Below are positions 7,175 to 39,659 of a DNA stretch of 41,722 nt, piece after piece. Each line of letters starts with the position of its first letter. Position 1 is the first letter of the stretch. Origin of the DNA: Actinomycetes bacterium (GTDB lineage: Bacteria; Actinomycetota; Thermoleophilia; Gaiellales; Gaiellaceae); NCBI GenBank assembly GCA_025964535.1, contig JAOPYX010000003.1, forward strand, positions 1 to 41,722. The letters are read 5' to 3'. The position numbers were made by a program, and so were the translations under genes. The notes beneath the pieces were generated by a model. That model saw nothing but the letters and a program-made list of their open reading frames with translations. It had not been told where the DNA came from and searched no databases.

Positions 7175-8182
7175 GTGCTGCCACGGCGGCTCGAACAGGG
7201 CGACCTCGTCGGCATCGTCTCGCCGTCGTCGCCGGTCGCCGCGGGCACCCCGCGCAGGTTCGAGCGCGGCGTCGCGGAGCTCGAGCGGCGCGGCTTTCGG
7301 GTGCGCGTCGGTGAGCACGCACGGTCGAAGACCGGGTGGACGGCCGGCACTCCGGTCGATCGTGTAGCCGACCTGCACGCGATGTTCGTCGATCCCGAGG
7401 TGCGCGCGATCGTGTGCACGATCGGCGGCTACAACGCGAATCAGCTCCTCGAGTTGCTCGACTACGACCTGATCGCAGCGAACCCGAAGCTCTTCGTCGG
7501 TTTCAGCGACATCACCGCGCTGCACGGCGCGATCCATGCGCGCACGGGCCTCGCGACGATGCTCGGCCCTGCGCTGCTCGGGCAGTTCGGCGAGTACGGC
7601 GGCGTGCACGACTACACGTGGGACGCGTTCGAGCGCGTCGCGATGCACGCGGCGCCCGCGGGCGTCTTTCGCCGGCCGGAGCATTGGTACCCGGAGCGGC
7701 TCTGGTGGGACACGCAGGATGACCGGCCGCGGTGGCCCGAGCCGGCGCCGCCGTGGCGCACGGTTCGCGACGGATCCGGCGAAGGACCGATCGTCGCCGG
7801 CAACGTCAACACGCTGCTGCTCCTGAACGGCACGCCCTGGTCGCCGTCGCTCGACGGGGCGCTGCTCTGTCTCGAGGACGACGAGGAGTACGGCAAGCCG
7901 TGGATGGTCGAGCGGCAGCTCTTCCAGCTGCGGCACCTCGGCGCCTTCGAGCGCGTGGCCGGTGTCGCGTACGGCCGAATCCATCCGGAGTCGGGGTTCG
8001 AGTCGGACGAGTGGATCGACGAGATCCTGTTGCGTGCGACCGCGGGTACGGAGATCCCGGTTGCCGCGGGCCTCGACTTCTCGCACACCGACCCGCTGCT
8101 CACGCTCCCGTGGGGCGTCCGTGCGCGCCTCGACACAGGCGACGAGGTGACGCTCGAGTTACTGGAAGCGGCGGTGGACTAG
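7175..8182 (+). CDS. LD-carboxypeptidase (peptidase family S66)
   Basis: GDLVGIVSPSSPV..., GGYNANQLLELLDYDLIAANPKLFVGFSDITALHGAI (S66 nucleophile Ser region), GTG start. Confidence 0.85.
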   Translation: MLPRRLEQGDLVGIVSPSSPVAAGTPRRFERGVAELERRGFRVRVGEHARSKTGWTAGTPVDRVADLHAMFVDPEVRAIVCTIGGYNANQLLELLDYDLIAANPKLFVGFSDITALHGAIHARTGLATMLGPALLGQFGEYGGVHDYTWDAFERVAMHAAPAGVFRRPEHWYPERLWWDTQDDRPRWPEPAPPWRTVRDGSGEGPIVAGNVNTLLLLNGTPWSPSLDGALLCLEDDEEYGKPWMVERQLFQLRHLGAFERVAGVAYGRIHPESGFESDEWIDEILLRATAGTEIPVAAGLDFSHTDPLLTLPWGVRARLDTGDEVTLELLEAAVD

Positions 8183-8358
8183 CGCGGGCGGCGCGTGGCG
8201 CGACGGAGCTCGAGCAGCTTCGCCGCCGCCTTCGGCCCGTGCTTGCGCGCGAGCGTCAGAGCCTGCTTGCGCTGCTTCGGTGGCAGCCGGCGCCACACGT
8301 CGTACAGCGTGATCGCGATTCCGACGGGGCCGGGGCGGAGCTTGCCGAGGCGAGGCAT
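8179..8358 (-). CDS. Small basic protein, 59 aa, unknown function (absent from supplied ORF track)
   Basis: Reverse-strand reading MPRLGKLRPGPVGIAITLYDVWRRLPPKQRKQALTLARKHGPKAAAKLLELRRATRRPR*; stop overlaps the LD-carboxypeptidase stop. Confidence 0.6.
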   Translation of the reverse strand: MPRLGKLRPGPVGIAITLYDVWRRLPPKQRKQALTLARKHGPKAAAKLLELRRATRRPR

Positions 8359-8367
8359 GACTCCATG

Positions 8368-9189
8368 TTAGTGGGAGTCGTCGCCTCCAGCGTCGCCGTG
8401 CCCGTGTTTATCGCCGGTGCCACCGATGAACGGCAGCTGCGGAGCGACGACCTGGGGCGCCTGCGGAGCGACGACCTGGGGCGCCTGTGGAGCCACGACT
8501 TGTGGCGGCGTCGGGGCCACGACCTGCGGCGGCGTCGGGCTGACGACCTGGACGGCCGCGAGTACCGTGGAGCTCTTGTCGTCTCCCTTGCTTCCGTTGT
8601 TCCCGTTGTTGCCGCCATGGTCGCCGCCGTGCTTGTCCTCGTTGCCCTGACCGTGATGCTGCTCCCCGTCGCCCTGGTGCTTGCCCTCGTTGGGCGCGAC
8701 CGCCGGGGTCTGGGCGAGCCCGCGGTCGGTGGGAGCGGGGATGACAGGAGCGGGGGTCGCGACGGCGACGGGCGCCGCGGCGGGGGCGGGCGCAGGAGCG
8801 ACCGGAGCGGGAGCAGGCTTGGTCGGGGTGGGCTTCGTGGAGCGCGGACGAATGGCAGCCGGCGTCGACGAGACGCCGGCAGCGACGTGCGCGGGCTGCA
8901 CACGGGCCGGATGTGTCGCGGTCGCGGGCGCCTTGATGCGCGTGATCACGATCGTGCGCGCGGGCGGGCCGACGGCGAGTTGGCCGGGGTGCGTCGAGAC
9001 GGCCGAATGCTGGGGCGGCGCCCATGGAGCAGCCTGCACGACGAGCGGGGAGCCGGGGGCCGACGGCAGCGCGGAGGCGCCGAACGCGGGCAGAGTCGGC
9101 TCGCTTGCGAGCAGATGGGCGAATGCCGCCGCGCCCGCCACCGCACCGGCGAGAAGGATCGCCGCGACTGCTCGTCCCATGCCACTCAT
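8368..9189 (-). CDS. Secreted Pro/Ala-rich protein with His/Gly/Asn-rich segment and C-terminal 8-aa repeats
   Basis: N-terminal hydrophobic signal-like segment, PAPAP linker, KHQGDGEQHHGQGNEDKHGGDHGGNN, then (TP/QA)PQVVAP repeats. Confidence 0.6.
   Translation of the reverse strand: MSGMGRAVAAILLAGAVAGAAAFAHLLASEPTLPAFGASALPSAPGSPLVVQAAPWAPPQHSAVSTHPGQLAVGPPARTIVITRIKAPATATHPARVQPAHVAAGVSSTPAAIRPRSTKPTPTKPAPAPVAPAPAPAAAPVAVATPAPVIPAPTDRGLAQTPAVAPNEGKHQGDGEQHHGQGNEDKHGGDHGGNNGNNGSKGDDKSSTVLAAVQVVSPTPPQVVAPTPPQVVAPQAPQVVAPQAPQVVAPQLPFIGGTGDKHGHGDAGGDDSH
8437..8550. repeat. 24-bp tandem repeat (about 4.75 copies) inside CDS
   Basis: CTGCGGAGCGACGACCTGGGGCGC at 8437 and 8461 identical; diverged copies at 8485 and 8509; partial at 8533. 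Confidence 0.9.
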
Positions 9190-9269
9190 GCTCTACTCCC
9201 CCGATGCCGACAACATCACTCGAACGAGTTATCGGCAGGTGCCGGTCCGACCTTGAGGATTGAGCCGAG

Positions 9270-11054
9270 ATGAGGGGCGTCGGGGTGGGAAGCTTCAAGT
9301 TCAAGCTGGTGGTCTACTTTCTGCTGCTCTCGCTCTTGCCGATTGCAGCGGCCTTCTGGGGATTCGCTTCGGTCGCCGGGCAGAGCGCGACGCGGCGCGT
9401 CGACTCGCGGCTCCAGGCCGGGCTGCGCGCATCGCTTGCGGGCTACCAGGAAAAGGTGGACGCCGCGCAGGCGAGTGCCGCGAGGCTCGCGCGCAACCGC
9501 GCGTTCCAGGTCGAGCTTCAGCGCCGGGATGTCGCAGCGCTGACAGCGGCGTTGGGCAAGGCGGCCAACGTGTACGTCGTCGCATCAGGGCACGCACTGC
9601 ACGTGGGGCGGCGCCCCGGCTTGGCGGCGCAGCGTCAGGTGGCCGTCTTCACGCCGACCGGCCTCGCGGGAACCGTCACAGCGTTCGTCCCGTTCGACGC
9701 TGCACTCGTGAAGTCCGTCCGTGCGCGATCGAGCCTTGCAGGTGTCGACGCGCTCGTGCTCGTGCACGGCTCGCGCATCGTCGCCTCGTCGCCCAACGTG
9801 GCCGGCCGGCTGCCGCTCGGCGTCGGGCAGACGCAGACGGTGACCGTGTCCGGCACGCGCTACCGGGCGCTCGTCGGGCCGCCGGTCGGGGAGATTTCCG
9901 GCGTTCGCTTCGCCGTCCTCAGCCCGCAGTCGCTGATCGACTCCGCCAACGCGAGCTCGCGCAACCGCCTGCTCCTGGGACTGCTCGCGTCGCTCGCGCT
10001 CGTCTCGCTCGTCGCCTTCTTCGAGGGGCGCTCGATCGTGCGCACCCTGCGCGGCCTCGGCGAGGCGGCCCACGCCATCGCACGCGGCAGGCTGTCGGAG
10101 CGCGTGCCGGTGCGCGGCAAGGACGAGTTCGCGCTGCTCGGCGTCGCCTTCAACGACATGGCGAACCAGCTCCAGGCGCGGCTCGACGATCTCGAGGACG
10201 AGCGCGGCCGCCTGCGCGACGCGATCACGCGCTTCGGCGAGGCGCTCTCGGCGTCGCACGATGTCGAGCAGTTGCTGCGGGTCATCGTGGAGGCGGCGGT
10301 CGAGGCGACGGGAGCGACCAGCGCGAGCCTCGCGGCCGGCAGCGACGAAGTCGTCGTAAACGGCGACCCGACCGCGACAGGAGAGCGTCTCGAGCTTCCG
10401 ATCACCGCCGGCCACGAGACGTTCGGAACGCTCACGCTGGTCGGCGCCCACTTCACCGCGGAGCAGCGGATGACCGCTTCGTCGCTCGCGTCGCATGCAG
10501 CCATCGCGCTCGAGAACGCGCGGCTCCATCGCATCGTCGAGCGCCAGGCGCTGGTCGACGGGCTGACCGGCATCGCGAACCGCCGCCAGTGCGAGGAAGC
10601 GCTCATCTCCGAGATCGCGCGCGCCGACCGCCTCGCGACTCCGCTCACCCTCGTGCTCGCCGACCTCGACGACTTCAAGGCGATCAACGACGTCCATGGC
10701 CACGCGACCGGCGACGACGTGCTGCGCGAGTTCGCCTCCGTCCTCCGCGCGACCGTCCGCGACTCCGACCTGGCCGGGAGATGGGGCGGGGAGGAGTTCC
10801 TGCTCCTGCTCCCCGGTGCCGACGGAGTGGGCGGAGCCCAGCTGGCCGATCGCGTCCGCGCGTCGCTCAGCGAGCGGTCGTTCGCCGGTCACGCCGGAGT
10901 GGTGGTCTCGGTCACGTGCAGCTTCGGCGTGGCCCAGCACACCCCCGGCCTGAACGAGCGTGAGCTCTTCGCCGCGGCCGACCGGGCGCTCTACCGGGCC
11001 AAGCGGGAGGGCAAGAACCGGGTGGAGATGGACACACCCGTCCGGAGCTTTTAG
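9270..11054 (+). CDS. Membrane diguanylate cyclase: TM/sensor, HAMP, GAF-like, GGDEF
   Basis: Two hydrophobic segments, HAMP region ARGRLSERVPVRGKDEFALLGVAFNDMANQL, GGDEF domain with RDSD-x5-GGEEF. Confidence 0.9.
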   Translation: MRGVGVGSFKFKLVVYFLLLSLLPIAAAFWGFASVAGQSATRRVDSRLQAGLRASLAGYQEKVDAAQASAARLARNRAFQVELQRRDVAALTAALGKAANVYVVASGHALHVGRRPGLAAQRQVAVFTPTGLAGTVTAFVPFDAALVKSVRARSSLAGVDALVLVHGSRIVASSPNVAGRLPLGVGQTQTVTVSGTRYRALVGPPVGEISGVRFAVLSPQSLIDSANASSRNRLLLGLLASLALVSLVAFFEGRSIVRTLRGLGEAAHAIARGRLSERVPVRGKDEFALLGVAFNDMANQLQARLDDLEDERGRLRDAITRFGEALSASHDVEQLLRVIVEAAVEATGATSASLAAGSDEVVVNGDPTATGERLELPITAGHETFGTLTLVGAHFTAEQRMTASSLASHAAIALENARLHRIVERQALVDGLTGIANRRQCEEALISEIARADRLATPLTLVLADLDDFKAINDVHGHATGDDVLREFASVLRATVRDSDLAGRWGGEEFLLLLPGADGVGGAQLADRVRASLSERSFAGHAGVVVSVTCSFGVAQHTPGLNERELFAAADRALYRAKREGKNRVEMDTPVRSF

Positions 11055-33226: not shown

Positions 33227-35320
33227 CTACCAGGCGGAGGGTGGCGGCGGCGTAACGAGCGGCGGCCGGTCGTCGCACGTGATCGTGTTCGGCAGCTCCC
33301 ACGCTGCGAGCCACGGGCCAGTCGTTCCGCCGCCGTCGTTGCCGCCGAGGTCGGTCACGGAGAACTCCGAGCCCGACGGCGTGAAGTGGAACGAGCCGCA
33401 GTTGTTGATCCCGACCGCACCGACATGGCGGGCGTCGACGTCTTGGAACGATGCCCCGCCGGCGACGCGTGCGCTCAGCACCGAGGTCCCCGTCCCGTCG
33501 ACGTGGATGTGTGCGAAGTGCACGTTCGAGATCGAGTAGAGGTCCTTCACGGGCCAGTCCGACACGAGCATGATCGCGTTGTAGGTGCTCTGGAGGAAGT
33601 TGTCGCCCGTCACCTGAATGTCTGCCGTGAGCGAGCCTTCGAGCGCATAGAGCCAGATCGCGCCGAGGCCGATCTTCCAGTTGAGCTCGAACGTGCCGGC
33701 CCGCACGGTCGTGTTGTCGGCGAACGCGAGGGTCCCGGCGAACGGGGTCGATCCGAAGCGCGAGCCGGCGTGGAGGCCACTACCCTCGCGCACCGGGTCG
33801 GCTACGACGTTGCTCGAGACCGTGTTGTTTCGACCGCCGTAGACGGCGATCCCGTTGGCGAGCACCGGGCTCTGGATCGTGTTGTGGTCGAAGGTGTTGT
33901 TCGCGTCCACGATCCCCGGGCTCCCGCCGACCGCTTCCGACCACATCGCCATCGCGTCGTCGCCCGTGTTGCGGAACAGGGAGTTCTCGACCCTCGAGCT
34001 CGTCACGCCCTGGTGGAAGTTCACGCCGTCCGCGATCTGGTCTGTGACCACGGTGTTCGCGATCGTCACGTTGTTCATCGGCCCGTCGAGCCAGATGCCG
34101 ACCTTCGTGTGGTGGACGTAGAGCGCGTCGATGGTCGAGTTGCTGAGTGCGCCGCCGATGCCGTTCACCTGGTCGGTGTCGATGCGCTCGCGGACGTCAC
34201 CCTCGATCGCGAAGTCCGAGAGGTGCACGTCGCTGCTCCCCCCGTCGGCCGCGTACTTCCCGTAGAAGCCGACCCCCGTGTGGACAGAGCCGTCCGGCGC
34301 GGGCGCGTCGAGCGTGACCTGATGGCCTTTGACGATCGACCACCAGCTGCCGGCACCCTGGATCGTCACGTGGTCGACGACGATGTGCCTGTTGACCTGG
34401 AACGTGCCGGCGGGGATGAACACGGTCTTGTGCGACAGCTTCGCCGCGAGGATCGCCAGGTCGAACGCACGGGCAGAATCGCGACTGCCCGTGGGATCGG
34501 CGCCGAACTTGGTAACGGAGAGGGAGCCCTCCGGCTGCGCTGCCGGCCCGTCGACCTGCTGGAAGTCGGCGAGATCGATGATGGCCCACGCCGCGTTCGT
34601 GTCGGCCGGCACCGCCAGACGCACGACGTCTCCCGCTCTATAGGTCGTGCCGAGCAGCACGCGCTGCTCGTCGTAGAAGTGCGTCGGCCGGAACGGCGTC
34701 GTCACCGTCGGCGTGGGGGTCGTCGCGGCAGGAACGCACGAGCACTCGGTGATCCACCAATCCGGGTGCAGGAGGCCCACCCTCGGATCGTTCGTGAACG
34801 GATACTGGCTGTAGAGGTACGAGTACTTCGAGGTCAGCGTGATCGTCTGCGGATGCGTGTTGTTGTTTCCCTCCCCGTCGCCGTGGTTGTCGACGGCCAC
34901 GGTGAGCGGCGCGTCGATTCCCCCGCCGGACGGCGCGTCCGGGAGCGAGTAGCGGATCGTCACCGCGTTCGCCGGCCGCGTGAGCGTGAACGCGACGTAC
35001 TGCCCCGCCGTGAGCTTGACGGCCTGCCGGCCCGACGCTTCGCCGGAGAGGGTGTAGGCCGACGTGTCGAACGGGAGGATCGAGCCGTTCGTCGCGGCGT
35101 TCTCGGCCTCCTGCTCGGCGATCCCGAGGCGGGCGCCGCGGCCGGCGACGAGCGACGGGTCGATCGCCGCGACGGTCTCGTGCGCGGCCGCTCTCGTGGT
35201 GCGGGGGCCGGCGGCGCCCGAGGAGGCCGCTGCGAGCGCGACGACCGCGACTGCCGCGACCGCGAAGCTGCGCCGGCGGTACGGGGCGGTGCCGTTCCTG
35301 CCAGGTCCCAGATGAGCCAT
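33227..35320 (-). CDS. Secreted right-handed beta-helix glycoside hydrolase, GH87-like (alpha-1,3-glucanase/mycodextranase)
   Basis: Signal peptide, CBM6/35-like N-domain, then [78 protein letters not shown]. Confidence 0.65.
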   Translation of the reverse strand: MAHLGPGRNGTAPYRRRSFAVAAVAVVALAAASSGAAGPRTTRAAAHETVAAIDPSLVAGRGARLGIAEQEAENAATNGSILPFDTSAYTLSGEASGRQAVKLTAGQYVAFTLTRPANAVTIRYSLPDAPSGGGIDAPLTVAVDNHGDGEGNNNTHPQTITLTSKYSYLYSQYPFTNDPRVGLLHPDWWITECSCVPAATTPTPTVTTPFRPTHFYDEQRVLLGTTYRAGDVVRLAVPADTNAAWAIIDLADFQQVDGPAAQPEGSLSVTKFGADPTGSRDSARAFDLAILAAKLSHKTVFIPAGTFQVNRHIVVDHVTIQGAGSWWSIVKGHQVTLDAPAPDGSVHTGVGFYGKYAADGGSSDVHLSDFAIEGDVRERIDTDQVNGIGGALSNSTIDALYVHHTKVGIWLDGPMNNVTIANTVVTDQIADGVNFHQGVTSSRVENSLFRNTGDDAMAMWSEAVGGSPGIVDANNTFDHNTIQSPVLANGIAVYGGRNNTVSSNVVADPVREGSGLHAGSRFGSTPFAGTLAFADNTTVRAGTFELNWKIGLGAIWLYALEGSLTADIQVTGDNFLQSTYNAIMLVSDWPVKDLYSISNVHFAHIHVDGTGTSVLSARVAGGASFQDVDARHVGAVGINNCGSFHFTPSGSEFSVTDLGGNDGGGTTGPWLAAWELPNTITCDDRPPLVTPPPPSAW

Positions 35321-35381
35321 CAGAGGTTCCTTTCGAACAGGAGGACGCGGACTTTCGTTTTTCTAATCGAATATTGCGACT

Positions 35382-35411
35382 TTCATACAACTTCTTGCAA
35401 TCCGCTGTCAA
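35382..35411 (-). promoter_or_regulatory. Candidate promoter for the minus-strand GH87-like gene
   Basis: Reverse strand TTGACA, 18 bp, TATGAA in an AT-rich patch. Confidence 0.4.
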
Positions 35412-35412
35412 G
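35394..35412. promoter_or_regulatory. Imperfect palindrome CTTGCAATCCGCTGTCAAG overlapping the -35 box
   Basis: Half-sites CTTGCAA and (reverse) CTTGACA, 5/7 matched. Confidence 0.25.
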
Positions 35413-35493
35413 TATGTAACCGTACCCGCGCCTTGCGGCAGGCAGAGGAGCCGGCGACGAAGCCGGCACGTCCTTCAGGAAAGAGGTCGTTGC

Positions 35494-38400
35494 ATGTCGC
35501 ACATGCCAGCACCTTCCCGGTCGCCCGGTCGGCGAGCCAGCCTCAGGAGGCTCGCCCTGGTCGGCGCGATGGCGCTCATGACGGTCGGAGGAGCAGGGGC
35601 CGCCGCCGCCGCAACCGGCGGGGTGGGCGCGTCCCTGCCCTACACCGAGCTCCAAGCCGAGAGCGCCGCCACGAACGGCACCGTGATCGGCCCGAGCTAC
35701 ACCTACGGCCAGCTTGCCGACGAGGCGTCCGGCCGCAAGGCGGTGACGCTCTCGGGAACGGGTCAATACGTCGAGTTCACCCTGCCCTCGACGGCCAACT
35801 CGATCGTCTTCCGCTACAGCATCCCGGACACGGCGAGCGGCTCGGTCTACACGGCGCCGATCGCCCTGTACATCAACGGGACGAAGAACCGTGACTTCAC
35901 GCTGACCAACGCGTACAGCTGGTACTACGGCGGCTATCCCTTCACGAACAGCCCGGGGAGCAACCCGCATCACTTCTACGACGAGGTGCACGCGCTGTTG
36001 CCCTCGATGGCTGCCGGGACGAAGGTCCGCCTCCAGGTCGACACGGCGGGCGCGTCGTCGTACACGATCGACTTCGCGGACTTCGAGCAAGTGGCTGCCC
36101 CGATCGCGCAGCCGGGCGGATCGGTGTCGGTGACGACCTACGGCGCGGACGCCGGCGGTGTCAACGACTCCACGTCAGCCTTCAACCAGGCGATCGCGGC
36201 CGCCGGAGCAGGCGGCACGGTCTGGATCCCGCAGGGCACCTTCAAGGTGACCCAGCACGTCATCGTCAACAACGTGACCGTCACGGGCGCGGGCATGTGG
36301 TACGCGAACGTCTCCGGGAACGGCGTGGGCTTCTACGGGAACTACGCACCGTCTCCGAGCTCGGGCGTCCACCTCTCCAACTTCGCCATCACCGGCGATG
36401 TGCAGGAGCGCAACGACGGCGCGCAGGTGAACGGCATCGGCGGTGCGCTCGCCAATTCGACGGTCTCGGACATCTGGATCGAGCACACCAAGGTCGGCGC
36501 GTGGATGGACGGCCCGTTCGACGGGCTGACCTTCACCCGGATGCGGATCCGCGACCAGACGGCGGACGGCGTCAACTTCCACAACGGCATCACGCACTCC
36601 ACCGTGACGCAGAGCGATCTCCGCAACCTCGGCGACGACGGTCTCGCAACGTGGTCCGAGACGAACGCCGACGCGTTCGACACGTTCAGCTTCAACACGG
36701 TTCAGTACCCGATTCTGGCCAACGGGATCGCGATCTACGGCGGTCACGACAACACCGTGAGCGACAACCGGGTCGTCGACGCGGGCCTGACACAGGGCGG
36801 TGGGATCCACGTCGCACAGCGCTTCAACTCGACGCCCCTCGGCCTGACGACGGTGACGCGCAACACGCTGATCCGCGACGGAAGCCTCGACCCGAACTGG
36901 CAGTTCGGCGTCGGCGCGCTCTGGTTCGACGCCCGCGACGCCGCGATGAGCGGCACCGTGAACGTCGACCAGATCGTCATCCAGCAGAGCCCGTACGAGG
37001 CGATCCAGTTCGTCTCCGGCTCGAGCATCACGAACGTGAACATCTCGAACGCGAGCATCGCGAGCGTCGGCACGTTCGTCGTGCAGGAGCAGGTCGGCGG
37101 CTCGGCCAAGTTCACGAACGTCGTCGCCACACAGGTGCTCGGCCCGGCCGGCCAGTACAACTGCGGCGTCGGCTTCACGGTCATCGACGGCGGCGGCAAC
37201 TCCGGCTGGAACACGACCTACTGCGGGCCGTGGCCCACGCCGCCGAACCCGCCTCCCGTGGGCGTCTCGGCAACCCCGACGGGGCTGAGCTTCGGCTCGC
37301 AGACAACGGGGACCACGAGCGGCGCACAGGCGGTCACCGTGACGAACTCGGGCAGCAGCGCAGTCAGCGTGTCCGGTGTGTCGATCACAGGCGACTACGG
37401 GCAGACGAACACCTGCGGGTCGAGCATCGGGGCAGGCGCTTCGTGCACCGTCAGCGTGACGTTCCATCCGACGGCCAACGGCACCCGGACGGGAACGCTC
37501 ACCGTCTCGACGAGTGACCCCAGCGGACCGACGACCGTGAGCCTCACCGGAACGGGCACCGCGCCCGGGCCGGCGCTCTCGGCATCGCCGGCGAGCCTGG
37601 CGTTCGCGTCGACGGTGGTCGGTACGACGACGGCAGCGCAGTCGACGACTCTGTCGAACAACGGGACGTCGACGGCGACGATCAGCTCCATCGCCGCGAG
37701 CGGGGACTTCGCGCAGACGAACAACTGCGGGACGAGCCTCGCGGTCGGAGCCAGCTGCACCATCAACGTGACGTTCACACCGACGGCAGCCGGTGCCCGC
37801 ACCGGTTCGGTCACCGTCACGAGCAACGCCGTGAACACTCCGACGACCATCTCGCTGTCGGGCAGTGGCATCGGCACGACGACGAACGTCGCGCTGAACC
37901 AGCCGACCTCGGCGAGCAGCTCCGTCAACAACGCGCAGACGCCGAACCTCGCAGTCGACGGAAACGCGAGCAGCTACTGGGAAAGCGCGAACGGCAGCTT
38001 CCCGCAGTGGCTGCAGGTCGATCTCGGCTCGGCTCTGTCGATCGGCAAGGTCGTGCTGAAGCTCCCGCCGTCCACGGCGTGGGGCGCACGGACGCAGACG
38101 CTGTCCGTCCAGGGCAGCACGAACGGGACGACGTTCACGACGCTCGTGAACTCGGCGAGCTACACGTTCGACACGGTAACCGGCAACACGGTGACGATCA
38201 CGTTCGCCGCGTCGTCGCAGCGCTACGTCCGGATCAACATCACGGCGAACACCGGTTGGGCGGCCGGCCAGGTCTCCGAGCTGGAGGTGTACCCGGCGGG
38301 CGGTGGCGGTGGCACGAGCGCGACGCTCTCCACCAACCCGTCGAGCCTCACGTTCGGCAGCACGACCGTAGGCGCGACGAGCGCGTCGCAGTCGGTGACG

Positions 38401-39051
38401 GTGACGAACACCGGCAATGCGGCGGCGTCGGTGACGTCGATCGTGGCGAGCGGCGACTTCGCGCAGACGAACACGTGCGGATCGAGCATCGCCGCCGGCG
38501 CCAGCTGCTCCATCACCGTGACCTTCACGCCGACGGCGAGCGGGACTCGCACGGGCTCGGTCACGATCACGAGCAGCGCCGTCAACAGCCCGACGTCGAT
38601 CTCGCTCTCGGGAACCGGCGCGGCGTCCAACACAAATCTCGCACTCGGCAAGACGATGAGCGCGAGTAGCTCGGTAAACGGGGCGCAAACCCCGAACTAC
38701 GCCAACGACAACAACACCAGCTCCTACTGGGAGAGCGCGAACAACACCTTCCCGCAGTGGCTGCAGGTGGATCTCGCTGCATCGACGAGCGTCAGCAGGA
38801 TCGTCGTCACGCTGCCGCCGTCGACGTCTTGGGCAACTCGCACGCAGACACTGAGTGTCTTGGGAAGCATCGACGGAACGACGTTCACCACGGTGGTTGC
38901 ATCGGCCGGGTACACGTTCAATCCCGCGACCGGCAACACGGTGACGATCACGTTCGGCGCAACGAGCCAGCGGTATCTGCGCCTGAACTTCACTGCCAAC
39001 ACCGGCTGGCCCGCCGGCCAGGCGTCGGAGTTCCAGGTGTACACCAGCTAG
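35494..39051 (+). CDS. Large secreted multidomain GH87-like protein with three ASH-type Ig repeats and two discoidin (F5/8 type C) domains
   Basis: ATG at 35494 (ORF track start 35374 probably too early), signal peptide, [30 protein letters not shown]...[34 protein letters not shown]; later [29 protein letters not shown] and [34 protein letters not shown]. Confidence 0.75.
37573..39048. repeat. Tandem duplication of an ASH + discoidin module (about 730 bp each)
   Basis: Unit 1 about 37573-38303, unit 2 about 38320-39048; shared stretches such as [13 protein letters not shown].WxxRTQTLSVxGSxxGTTFTT and TGNTVTITF. Confidence 0.8.
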
Positions 39052-39061
39052 GGCTGCAGAA

Positions 39062-39098
39062 CCGTGTCGCCGGGAGCCCCGAGCTCCCGGCGACACGG
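39062..39098 (+). terminator. Long hairpin after the GH87-like gene
   Basis: 16-bp perfect stem CCGTGTCGCCGGGAGC-CCCGA-GCTCCCGGCGACACGG. Confidence 0.65.
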
Positions 39099-39164: not shown

Positions 39165-39659
39165 ATGATCGAGGTCGTCCGCGGCGACATCACGGAGCAG
39201 GACGTCGACGCGATCGTCAACGCAGCGAATTCGACCCTGCTCGGCGGCGGTGGGGTGGACGGCGCAATCCATCGCGCGGCAGGCCCGACCCTCCTCGCGG
39301 AGTGCCGGCTGCTCGGCGGCTGCGAGACCGGCGACGCGAAGGCGACGGCGGCGGGCAACCTCCCGGCGCGCTATGTCATCCACACCGTCGGCCCGGTGTG
39401 GAGCGGCGGCGGCGAGGGCGAGCCGGAGCTCCTGGCGTCGTGTCATCGCCGCTCGCTCGAGGTGGCCGCGTCGCTCGGCTGCAGAACGGTCGCGTTCCCG
39501 GCGATCTCGACCGGCGCGTACGGCTATCCCGTGGAGCTCGCCGCGCCGGTTGCGATCGCGGCCGTGCGGGCGGCGCAAGGGCCGCCGGTCGAGGTCGTGC
39601 GCTTCGTGCTCCACAGCGCGTGGGATCTCGACGTGTTCCGGCGAGCGGTCGCCAGTTAG
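39165..39659 (+). CDS. Macro domain protein (ADP-ribose/O-acetyl-ADP-ribose processing type)
   Basis: [39 protein letters not shown]...[14 protein letters not shown]. Confidence 0.95.

Follow-up and report, generated by a model that had tools for sequence, protein, structure and literature searches.

A divergent GH87 gene pair, one compact and one multimodular, with a candidate common operator in an actinobacterium of the Gaiellaceae

Alpha-1,3-glucan forms a protective layer in several fungi, is a sticky component of dental plaque, and is also present in bacterial biofilms. To our knowledge, few enzymes of the glycoside hydrolase family GH87 have been characterised. Members of this family hydrolyse the alpha-1,3-glucan of fungal walls (PMC10696023), and a Streptomyces mycodextranase is also included (PMC11475409, PMC10696023). 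The described enzymes closest to the pair reported here are Agl-ST from Streptomyces thermodiastaticus HF3-3 (7c7d), Agl-KA from Bacillus circulans KA-304 (5zru), and Agl-FH1 from Paenibacillus glycanilyticus FH11 (6k0m and mutants). The GH87 catalytic unit contains a galactose-binding-like domain, D1, as an integral part, and mutation of D1067, D1090, and D1091 abolishes activity in Agl-KA (PMC6814745). The equivalents of this catalytic Asp triad in Agl-FH1 are D1045, D1068, and D1069 (PMC10696023). In Agl-KA the modules DS1-CBM6-TP-DS2-UCD precede the catalytic unit, and its discoidin and CBM6 domains attach to alpha-1,3-glucan and enhance hydrolysis (PMC6814745).

The window, meaning the whole stretch of DNA that was analysed, is a complete contig of 41,722 bases from a genome of 3.19 Mb in 360 contigs, with a completeness of 76.6%. 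Two GH87 genes diverge from a common gap of 173 bp. The compact enzyme, P0001 (697 amino acids; ORF calls), is encoded on the reverse strand at 33227..35320, and the multimodular enzyme, P0002 (1185 amino acids), on the forward strand at 35494..39051. The open reading frame listed for P0002 was 35374-39051 (+), but the true start is almost certainly ATG 35494, because the N-terminal MS at this codon is common to five full-length relatives in the alignment. The outer coordinates and opposite directions given in the initial annotation were thus correct, but the start it used for P0002 was 120 bp too early. In an alignment of 607 columns, the catalytic units of the two proteins shared 43% identity (E 2e-129), a similarity far above chance level. 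Genes for a peptide ABC transporter and an M24 peptidase lie on one side of the pair, and genes for a macro-domain protein and an ABC-2 transporter on the other; no alpha-glucan genes were found among these window neighbours. That the pair is unexpected next to housekeeping genes, as had been proposed, is a weak point, since actinobacterial GH87 genes occur in many contexts, although in the host's order few genomes have one (4 of 129).

Both enzymes are ordinary members of the well-known family GH87, and their membership is secure. The Pfam models PF22815 and PF22816 (CatAgl_D1 and CatAgl_D2) matched both proteins above cut-off, with 103 and 77.6 bits, respectively, for P0001 and 173 and 54.8 bits for P0002. 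The best solved relative of both was Agl-ST (phmmer E 1.7e-88 for P0001 and 1.6e-123 for P0002), followed by Agl-KA and then by Agl-FH1 and its mutants. An NCBIfam search of both proteins returned no match to a GH87 model; the library apparently contains no GH87 model, and the null result was therefore not counted against membership. The AF2 model of P0001 (pTM 0.83) was compared with known structures using Foldseek and gave a target TM-score of 0.91 against 7c7d and a range of 0.78-0.91 over the GH87 structures 7c7d, 5zru, and 6k0*. GH28 and the alginate epimerases, which ranked next, gave target TM-scores of 0.41-0.61 and E-values about 18 orders of magnitude weaker. Placement of P0001 in GH28, with the alginate epimerases, or in another beta-helix family was rejected on these far weaker sequence and fold matches. 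The initial annotation had suggested such a structural overlay and had named GH28, PL6, and GH55 as assignments that would speak against GH87; the overlay placed P0001 closest to GH87 entries. The GH87 assignment is borne out for both proteins by the two Pfam halves, the solved relatives, and the Asp triad.

The catalytic Asp triad is conserved in both proteins in sequence alignments. In P0001 it consists of D431 (34028..34030, reverse strand), which corresponds to Agl-KA D1067 and Agl-FH1 D1045 and was also aligned by phmmer to 5zru and 6k0m, and of D454-D455 (33956..33961, reverse strand), which correspond to Agl-KA D1090-D1091 and Agl-FH1 D1068-D1069. The residues in P0002, numbered from ATG 35494, are D358 (36565..36567, forward strand) and D381-D382 (36634..36639, forward strand), placed by alignment to the published triad (PMC6814745). 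The diagnostic stretch previously claimed for both proteins is present in each, as ...HTKVGIWLDGP...ADGVNFHQG...RNTGDDAMAMWSE in P0001 and as ...ADGVNFHNG... in P0002.

According to Pfam, P0001 is a bare catalytic unit without accessory domains. It comprises a signal-like N-terminal segment, the galactose-binding-like D1 (residues 71-256; 34553..35110, reverse strand; Pfam), the right-handed beta-helix D2 (residues 296-612; 33485..34435, reverse strand; Pfam and AF2), and a short Pro-rich tail. Its D1 holds a Cys/Trp insert of about 28 residues (WWITECSCVP...) that was seen by alignment in all seven members of the compact clade described below and was absent from the aligned GH87 proteins outside it. 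P0002, on the forward strand, has D1 (35635..36093; Pfam) and the beta-helix D2 (36112..37248; Pfam, with the boundary set by alignment to 7c7d), followed by five extra modules, three Ig-like and two discoidin. These are two tandem choice-of-anchor-D (ASPM/Hydin-type Ig-like) domains (37267..37836; Pfam and NCBIfam, first boundary by eye), a discoidin (F5/8 type C) domain (37909..38283; PF00754), a third choice-of-anchor-D domain (38323..38619; Pfam and NCBIfam), and a second, C-terminal discoidin domain (38656..39048; Pfam and alignment). The choice-of-anchor-D model NF012200 matched three stretches (172 bits) and PF00754 matched two. Among the solved relatives of the first P0002 discoidin domain are those of a glucanase/chitosanase (2rva, 4zz5). 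The CBM-like N-terminal domain noted earlier is indeed common to both proteins, but it is D1, integral to the catalytic unit, and not an accessory CBM. Both N-termini, read by eye, begin with a basic stretch containing RR followed by a hydrophobic Ala/Val-rich segment, and both proteins are probably secreted.

Agl-ST has the same D1, beta-helix D2, and catalytic Asp triad as both proteins. P0001 differs from it in lacking a discoidin domain and in carrying the Cys/Trp insert, and P0002 differs in its five extra modules. The active-site neighbours are ADGVNFH in the window enzymes as compared with ADGLNLN in Agl-ST. A GH87 gene in another genome, at zero tree distance from Agl-ST (G469), encodes a C-terminal discoidin-like stretch. 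Agl-KA has the same catalytic unit and residues as the pair and likewise uses discoidin domains, but the modules of P0002 come after the catalytic unit and not before it, and no CBM6 was found in P0002 in the Pfam search. Agl-FH1 resembles the pair in fold and in its catalytic Asp equivalents, although it is only about 22% identical to P0001 in the fold alignment.

Relatives were obtained by scanning 84,980 species genomes, which yielded at least 580 confirmed candidates, of which 80 were kept. These 80 loci were mostly from Actinomycetes (Rugosimonospora, Actinomadura, Kribbella, Streptomyces, and others) and matched P0002 along most of its length, with best-segment identities of 53-67%; the host of P0002, in contrast, probably lies outside the Streptomyces class, since the genome G469 noted above belongs to the host's phylum but not to its class. 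Five full-length relatives of P0002 were aligned and were 64-67% identical to it. Three of the five have all five extra modules, and the other two lack one or more of the anchor-D domains. In a maximum-likelihood tree built from 111 catalytic domains (quick method, SH-aLRT support only), P0001 and P0002 fell into separate, strongly supported, old clades of GH87, and Agl-ST fell into another clade on a long branch. The compact clade has seven members: besides P0001, it includes G027 and G080, both from the family of the host, G283 from the Streptomyces-like family f25, a further two genomes from one other family, and Hamadaea tsunoensis. No solved structure falls within the compact clade or the clade of P0002, and no activity data for either clade were found among the sources that could be searched.

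The common domain core and the adjacent, divergent genes might suggest a recent tandem duplication in this lineage. However, the two proteins are 43% identical to each other, as against 76% between P0001 and the G027 enzyme and up to 76% between P0002 and an Actinomadura enzyme; they belong to the separate clades described above, and in several genomes the compact form is the only one of the two. A recent duplication was rejected by the 111-domain tree and is extremely improbable. The two genes are better regarded as representatives of distinct clades, of which the multimodular form is common in Actinomycetes and the compact form is sporadic. The combination of the two is not unique, because Hamadaea carries both in tandem; their divergent layout was found only here among the loci compared. 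In many Streptomyces, a GH87 gene is accompanied in tandem by a second, distant one. The patchy distribution of these genes points to gains and losses, perhaps through transfer. No empty insertion site was found in the genus, in which homologues of the flanking genes (best 60-77% identity) lie on separate contigs. A different divergent GH87 pair was seen in Microbispora corallina (L017:6248-7375 and 8133-9749), with a distant partner on the other strand. In a Chloroflexi metagenome-assembled genome (fen_1071; L070:8091-14209), two tandem multimodular-clade GH87 genes grouped with P0002 in the tree, possibly through inter-phylum transfer or as a mis-binned contig. A further GH87 gene (L088:3023-4795, genome G028) adjoins a gene for an Rv2525c-like glycoside-hydrolase-like protein.

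P0001 and P0002 probably hydrolyse alpha-1,3-glucan such as that in fungal walls and in biofilms. One or both might instead be mycodextranases acting on nigeran, an alternating alpha-1,3/alpha-1,4-glucan, or on another mixed alpha-glucan. GH87 does contain the Streptomyces mycodextranase, the clades of both window proteins lack a solved member, and their active-site neighbours are unlike those of Agl-ST, but Agl-ST, the solved enzyme most similar to each, is an alpha-1,3-glucanase with about 40-48% identity to them, and we consider this alternative unlikely. Activity on alpha-1,3-glucan is the reading preferred here for both enzymes. Genomic context bears on how the products might be used. In G027 the compact orthologue is followed by two same-strand GH65 genes of the kojibiose/maltose phosphorylase kind (L087:4227-8932), the only case of GH65 near GH87 among the loci compared. 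GH65 also includes nigerose phosphorylase. These GH65 genes support alpha-glucan use, and the G027 locus is likely an alpha-glucan utilisation cluster. Neither GH65 nor a GH18 chitinase was found in the 76.6%-complete host genome. The downstream pathway of G027 is therefore not seen in the host at this level of completeness, and the case for fungal wall lysis is weakened to the same limited extent.

The pair had been described earlier as degrading fungal cell walls or alpha-glucan. GH87 membership supports this description in part; a fungal cell-wall role is possible, but alpha-1,3-glucan is also found in bacterial biofilms and the family includes mycodextranases as well. It is improbable, in our estimate, that the two enzymes serve mainly as an antifungal (mycolytic) weapon and not as a feeding system. 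The action of GH87 enzymes on fungal wall alpha-1,3-glucan and the discoidin domains like those of glucanase/chitosanase would fit a weapon, but the failure to find GH18 in the incomplete genome, the phosphorylase-type GH65 genes beside the compact relative in the host's family, and an upstream motif resembling a carbohydrate-use operator fit it poorly. Feeding is the role preferred here.

The divergent control region (173 bp, 35321..35493) has 54% GC as compared with about 68% around it. Motif enrichment pointed to a candidate operator at 35372..35401, made up of TATTGCG (35372-35378) and TTCTTGCAAT (35392-35401), with half-sites that are inverted (ATTGC-19-GCAAT) and that span the putative promoters of both genes. 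The putative P0001 promoter, read from the sequence, is TTGACA-18-TATGAA (35382..35411, reverse strand), with TTGCAAGAA within its spacer. A consensus promoter scan, which demands T as the last -10 base, returned nothing, this promoter included. The putative P0002 promoter was assigned by eye at 35395..35423 (forward strand), where TTGC and T(A/T)ACCGT are 22 nt apart, as in the Actinomadura homologue (L008). One control region for a compact and a multimodular enzyme, as the initial annotation had it, is confirmed, and the region bears a motif common to GH87 genes.

Elements of the TTCTTGCAA/TATTGC type were strongly enriched upstream of actinobacterial GH87 genes. Counts were made in the upstreams of 107 GH87 genes, of 542 other genes from those loci, and of 84 controls with clear upstream DNA of GC <=66%. 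At least one motif variant was present in 89%, 11%, and 31% of these sets, respectively, TATTGC, the commonest variant, in 64%, 4%, and 14%, and TTCTTGC in 37%, 3%, and 11%, all drawn from related, non-independent sequences. TTCTTGC occurred in six of seven compact-clade upstreams (Fisher p 2e-8 versus controls), and the upstream of the G283 compact gene has an inverted pair, CTGCAAG...CTTGCAG. Genome-wide, the exact site TTCTTGCAA was not enriched (5 occurrences versus 6 for a reversed control), and the remaining four sites showed no link to alpha-glucan genes. Six LacI-type genes were found in the host genome.

In Streptomyces lividans the core of the MalR site is CTTGCAG, in direct or inverted repeats, an arrangement shared by MalR, Reg1, and AcrC operators; the AcrC site, CTTGC(A/T)G, likewise lies between two divergent genes, in their promoter region (PMC5526262). 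The half-sites in the control region, CTTGCAA and TATTGC, resemble this core but differ from the exact CTTGCAG heptamer pair of these operators. We infer that the candidate operator is MalR-like and serves both GH87 genes. The TTGC-rich elements could alternatively be promoter -35 sequences only, with no operator, a possibility of some weight though not the one we favour. It would agree with TATTGC as the commonest variant and with TATTGCG at -35 spacing before TTACCGT in the multimodular clade, but TTCTTGC/GCAAGAA and the paired CTGCAAG...CTTGCAG are located elsewhere and on both strands, the six compact-clade upstreams included. A -35 element common to these genes may account for part of the TATTGC signal.

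Taken as a whole, the mechanism proposed here is one that we regard as likely: P0001 and P0002 would be secreted, inverting GH87 endo-alpha-1,3-glucanases under one switchable control region. The discoidin domains of P0002 would hold insoluble glucan so that it is cut on the spot, and P0001 would be a freely diffusing partner whose substrates are soluble oligosaccharides or chains already loosened. Central in the beta-helix cleft of each enzyme, one Asp would serve as general acid and another would activate water. The products would be nigero-oligosaccharides, imported and degraded as nutrients. Until breakdown products of alpha-glucan appear, both genes are probably repressed by a LacI/MalR-type regulator bound at the TTGCAAGAA/TATTGC elements.

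The pair adds GH87 enzymes from an actinobacterium outside the Streptomyces class and highlights a compact subfamily without a solved structure, and the candidate operator offers a testable switch for bacterial alpha-1,3-glucan use. The compact clade and the candidate regulon might each, with moderate probability, surprise a specialist. A tentative further idea, which we doubt more than we credit, is that the actinobacterial GH87 genes form an undescribed MalR-like alpha-1,3-glucan regulon and that the compact Cys/Trp-insert clade is a functionally distinct subfamily. Such a subfamily might, for example, act on soluble or mixed-linkage oligosaccharides and be coupled to GH65 phosphorylases.

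Just past the P0002 stop, a perfect 16-bp hairpin (39062..39098, forward strand; fold z-score -6.4) is a probable terminator of this gene; the inverted repeat is GC-rich and lacks a T-run. The macro-domain protein just downstream of the pair (39165-39659) is of the O-acetyl-ADP-ribose deacetylase family; of 15 other genomes from the genus, only one encodes a close homologue (77%).
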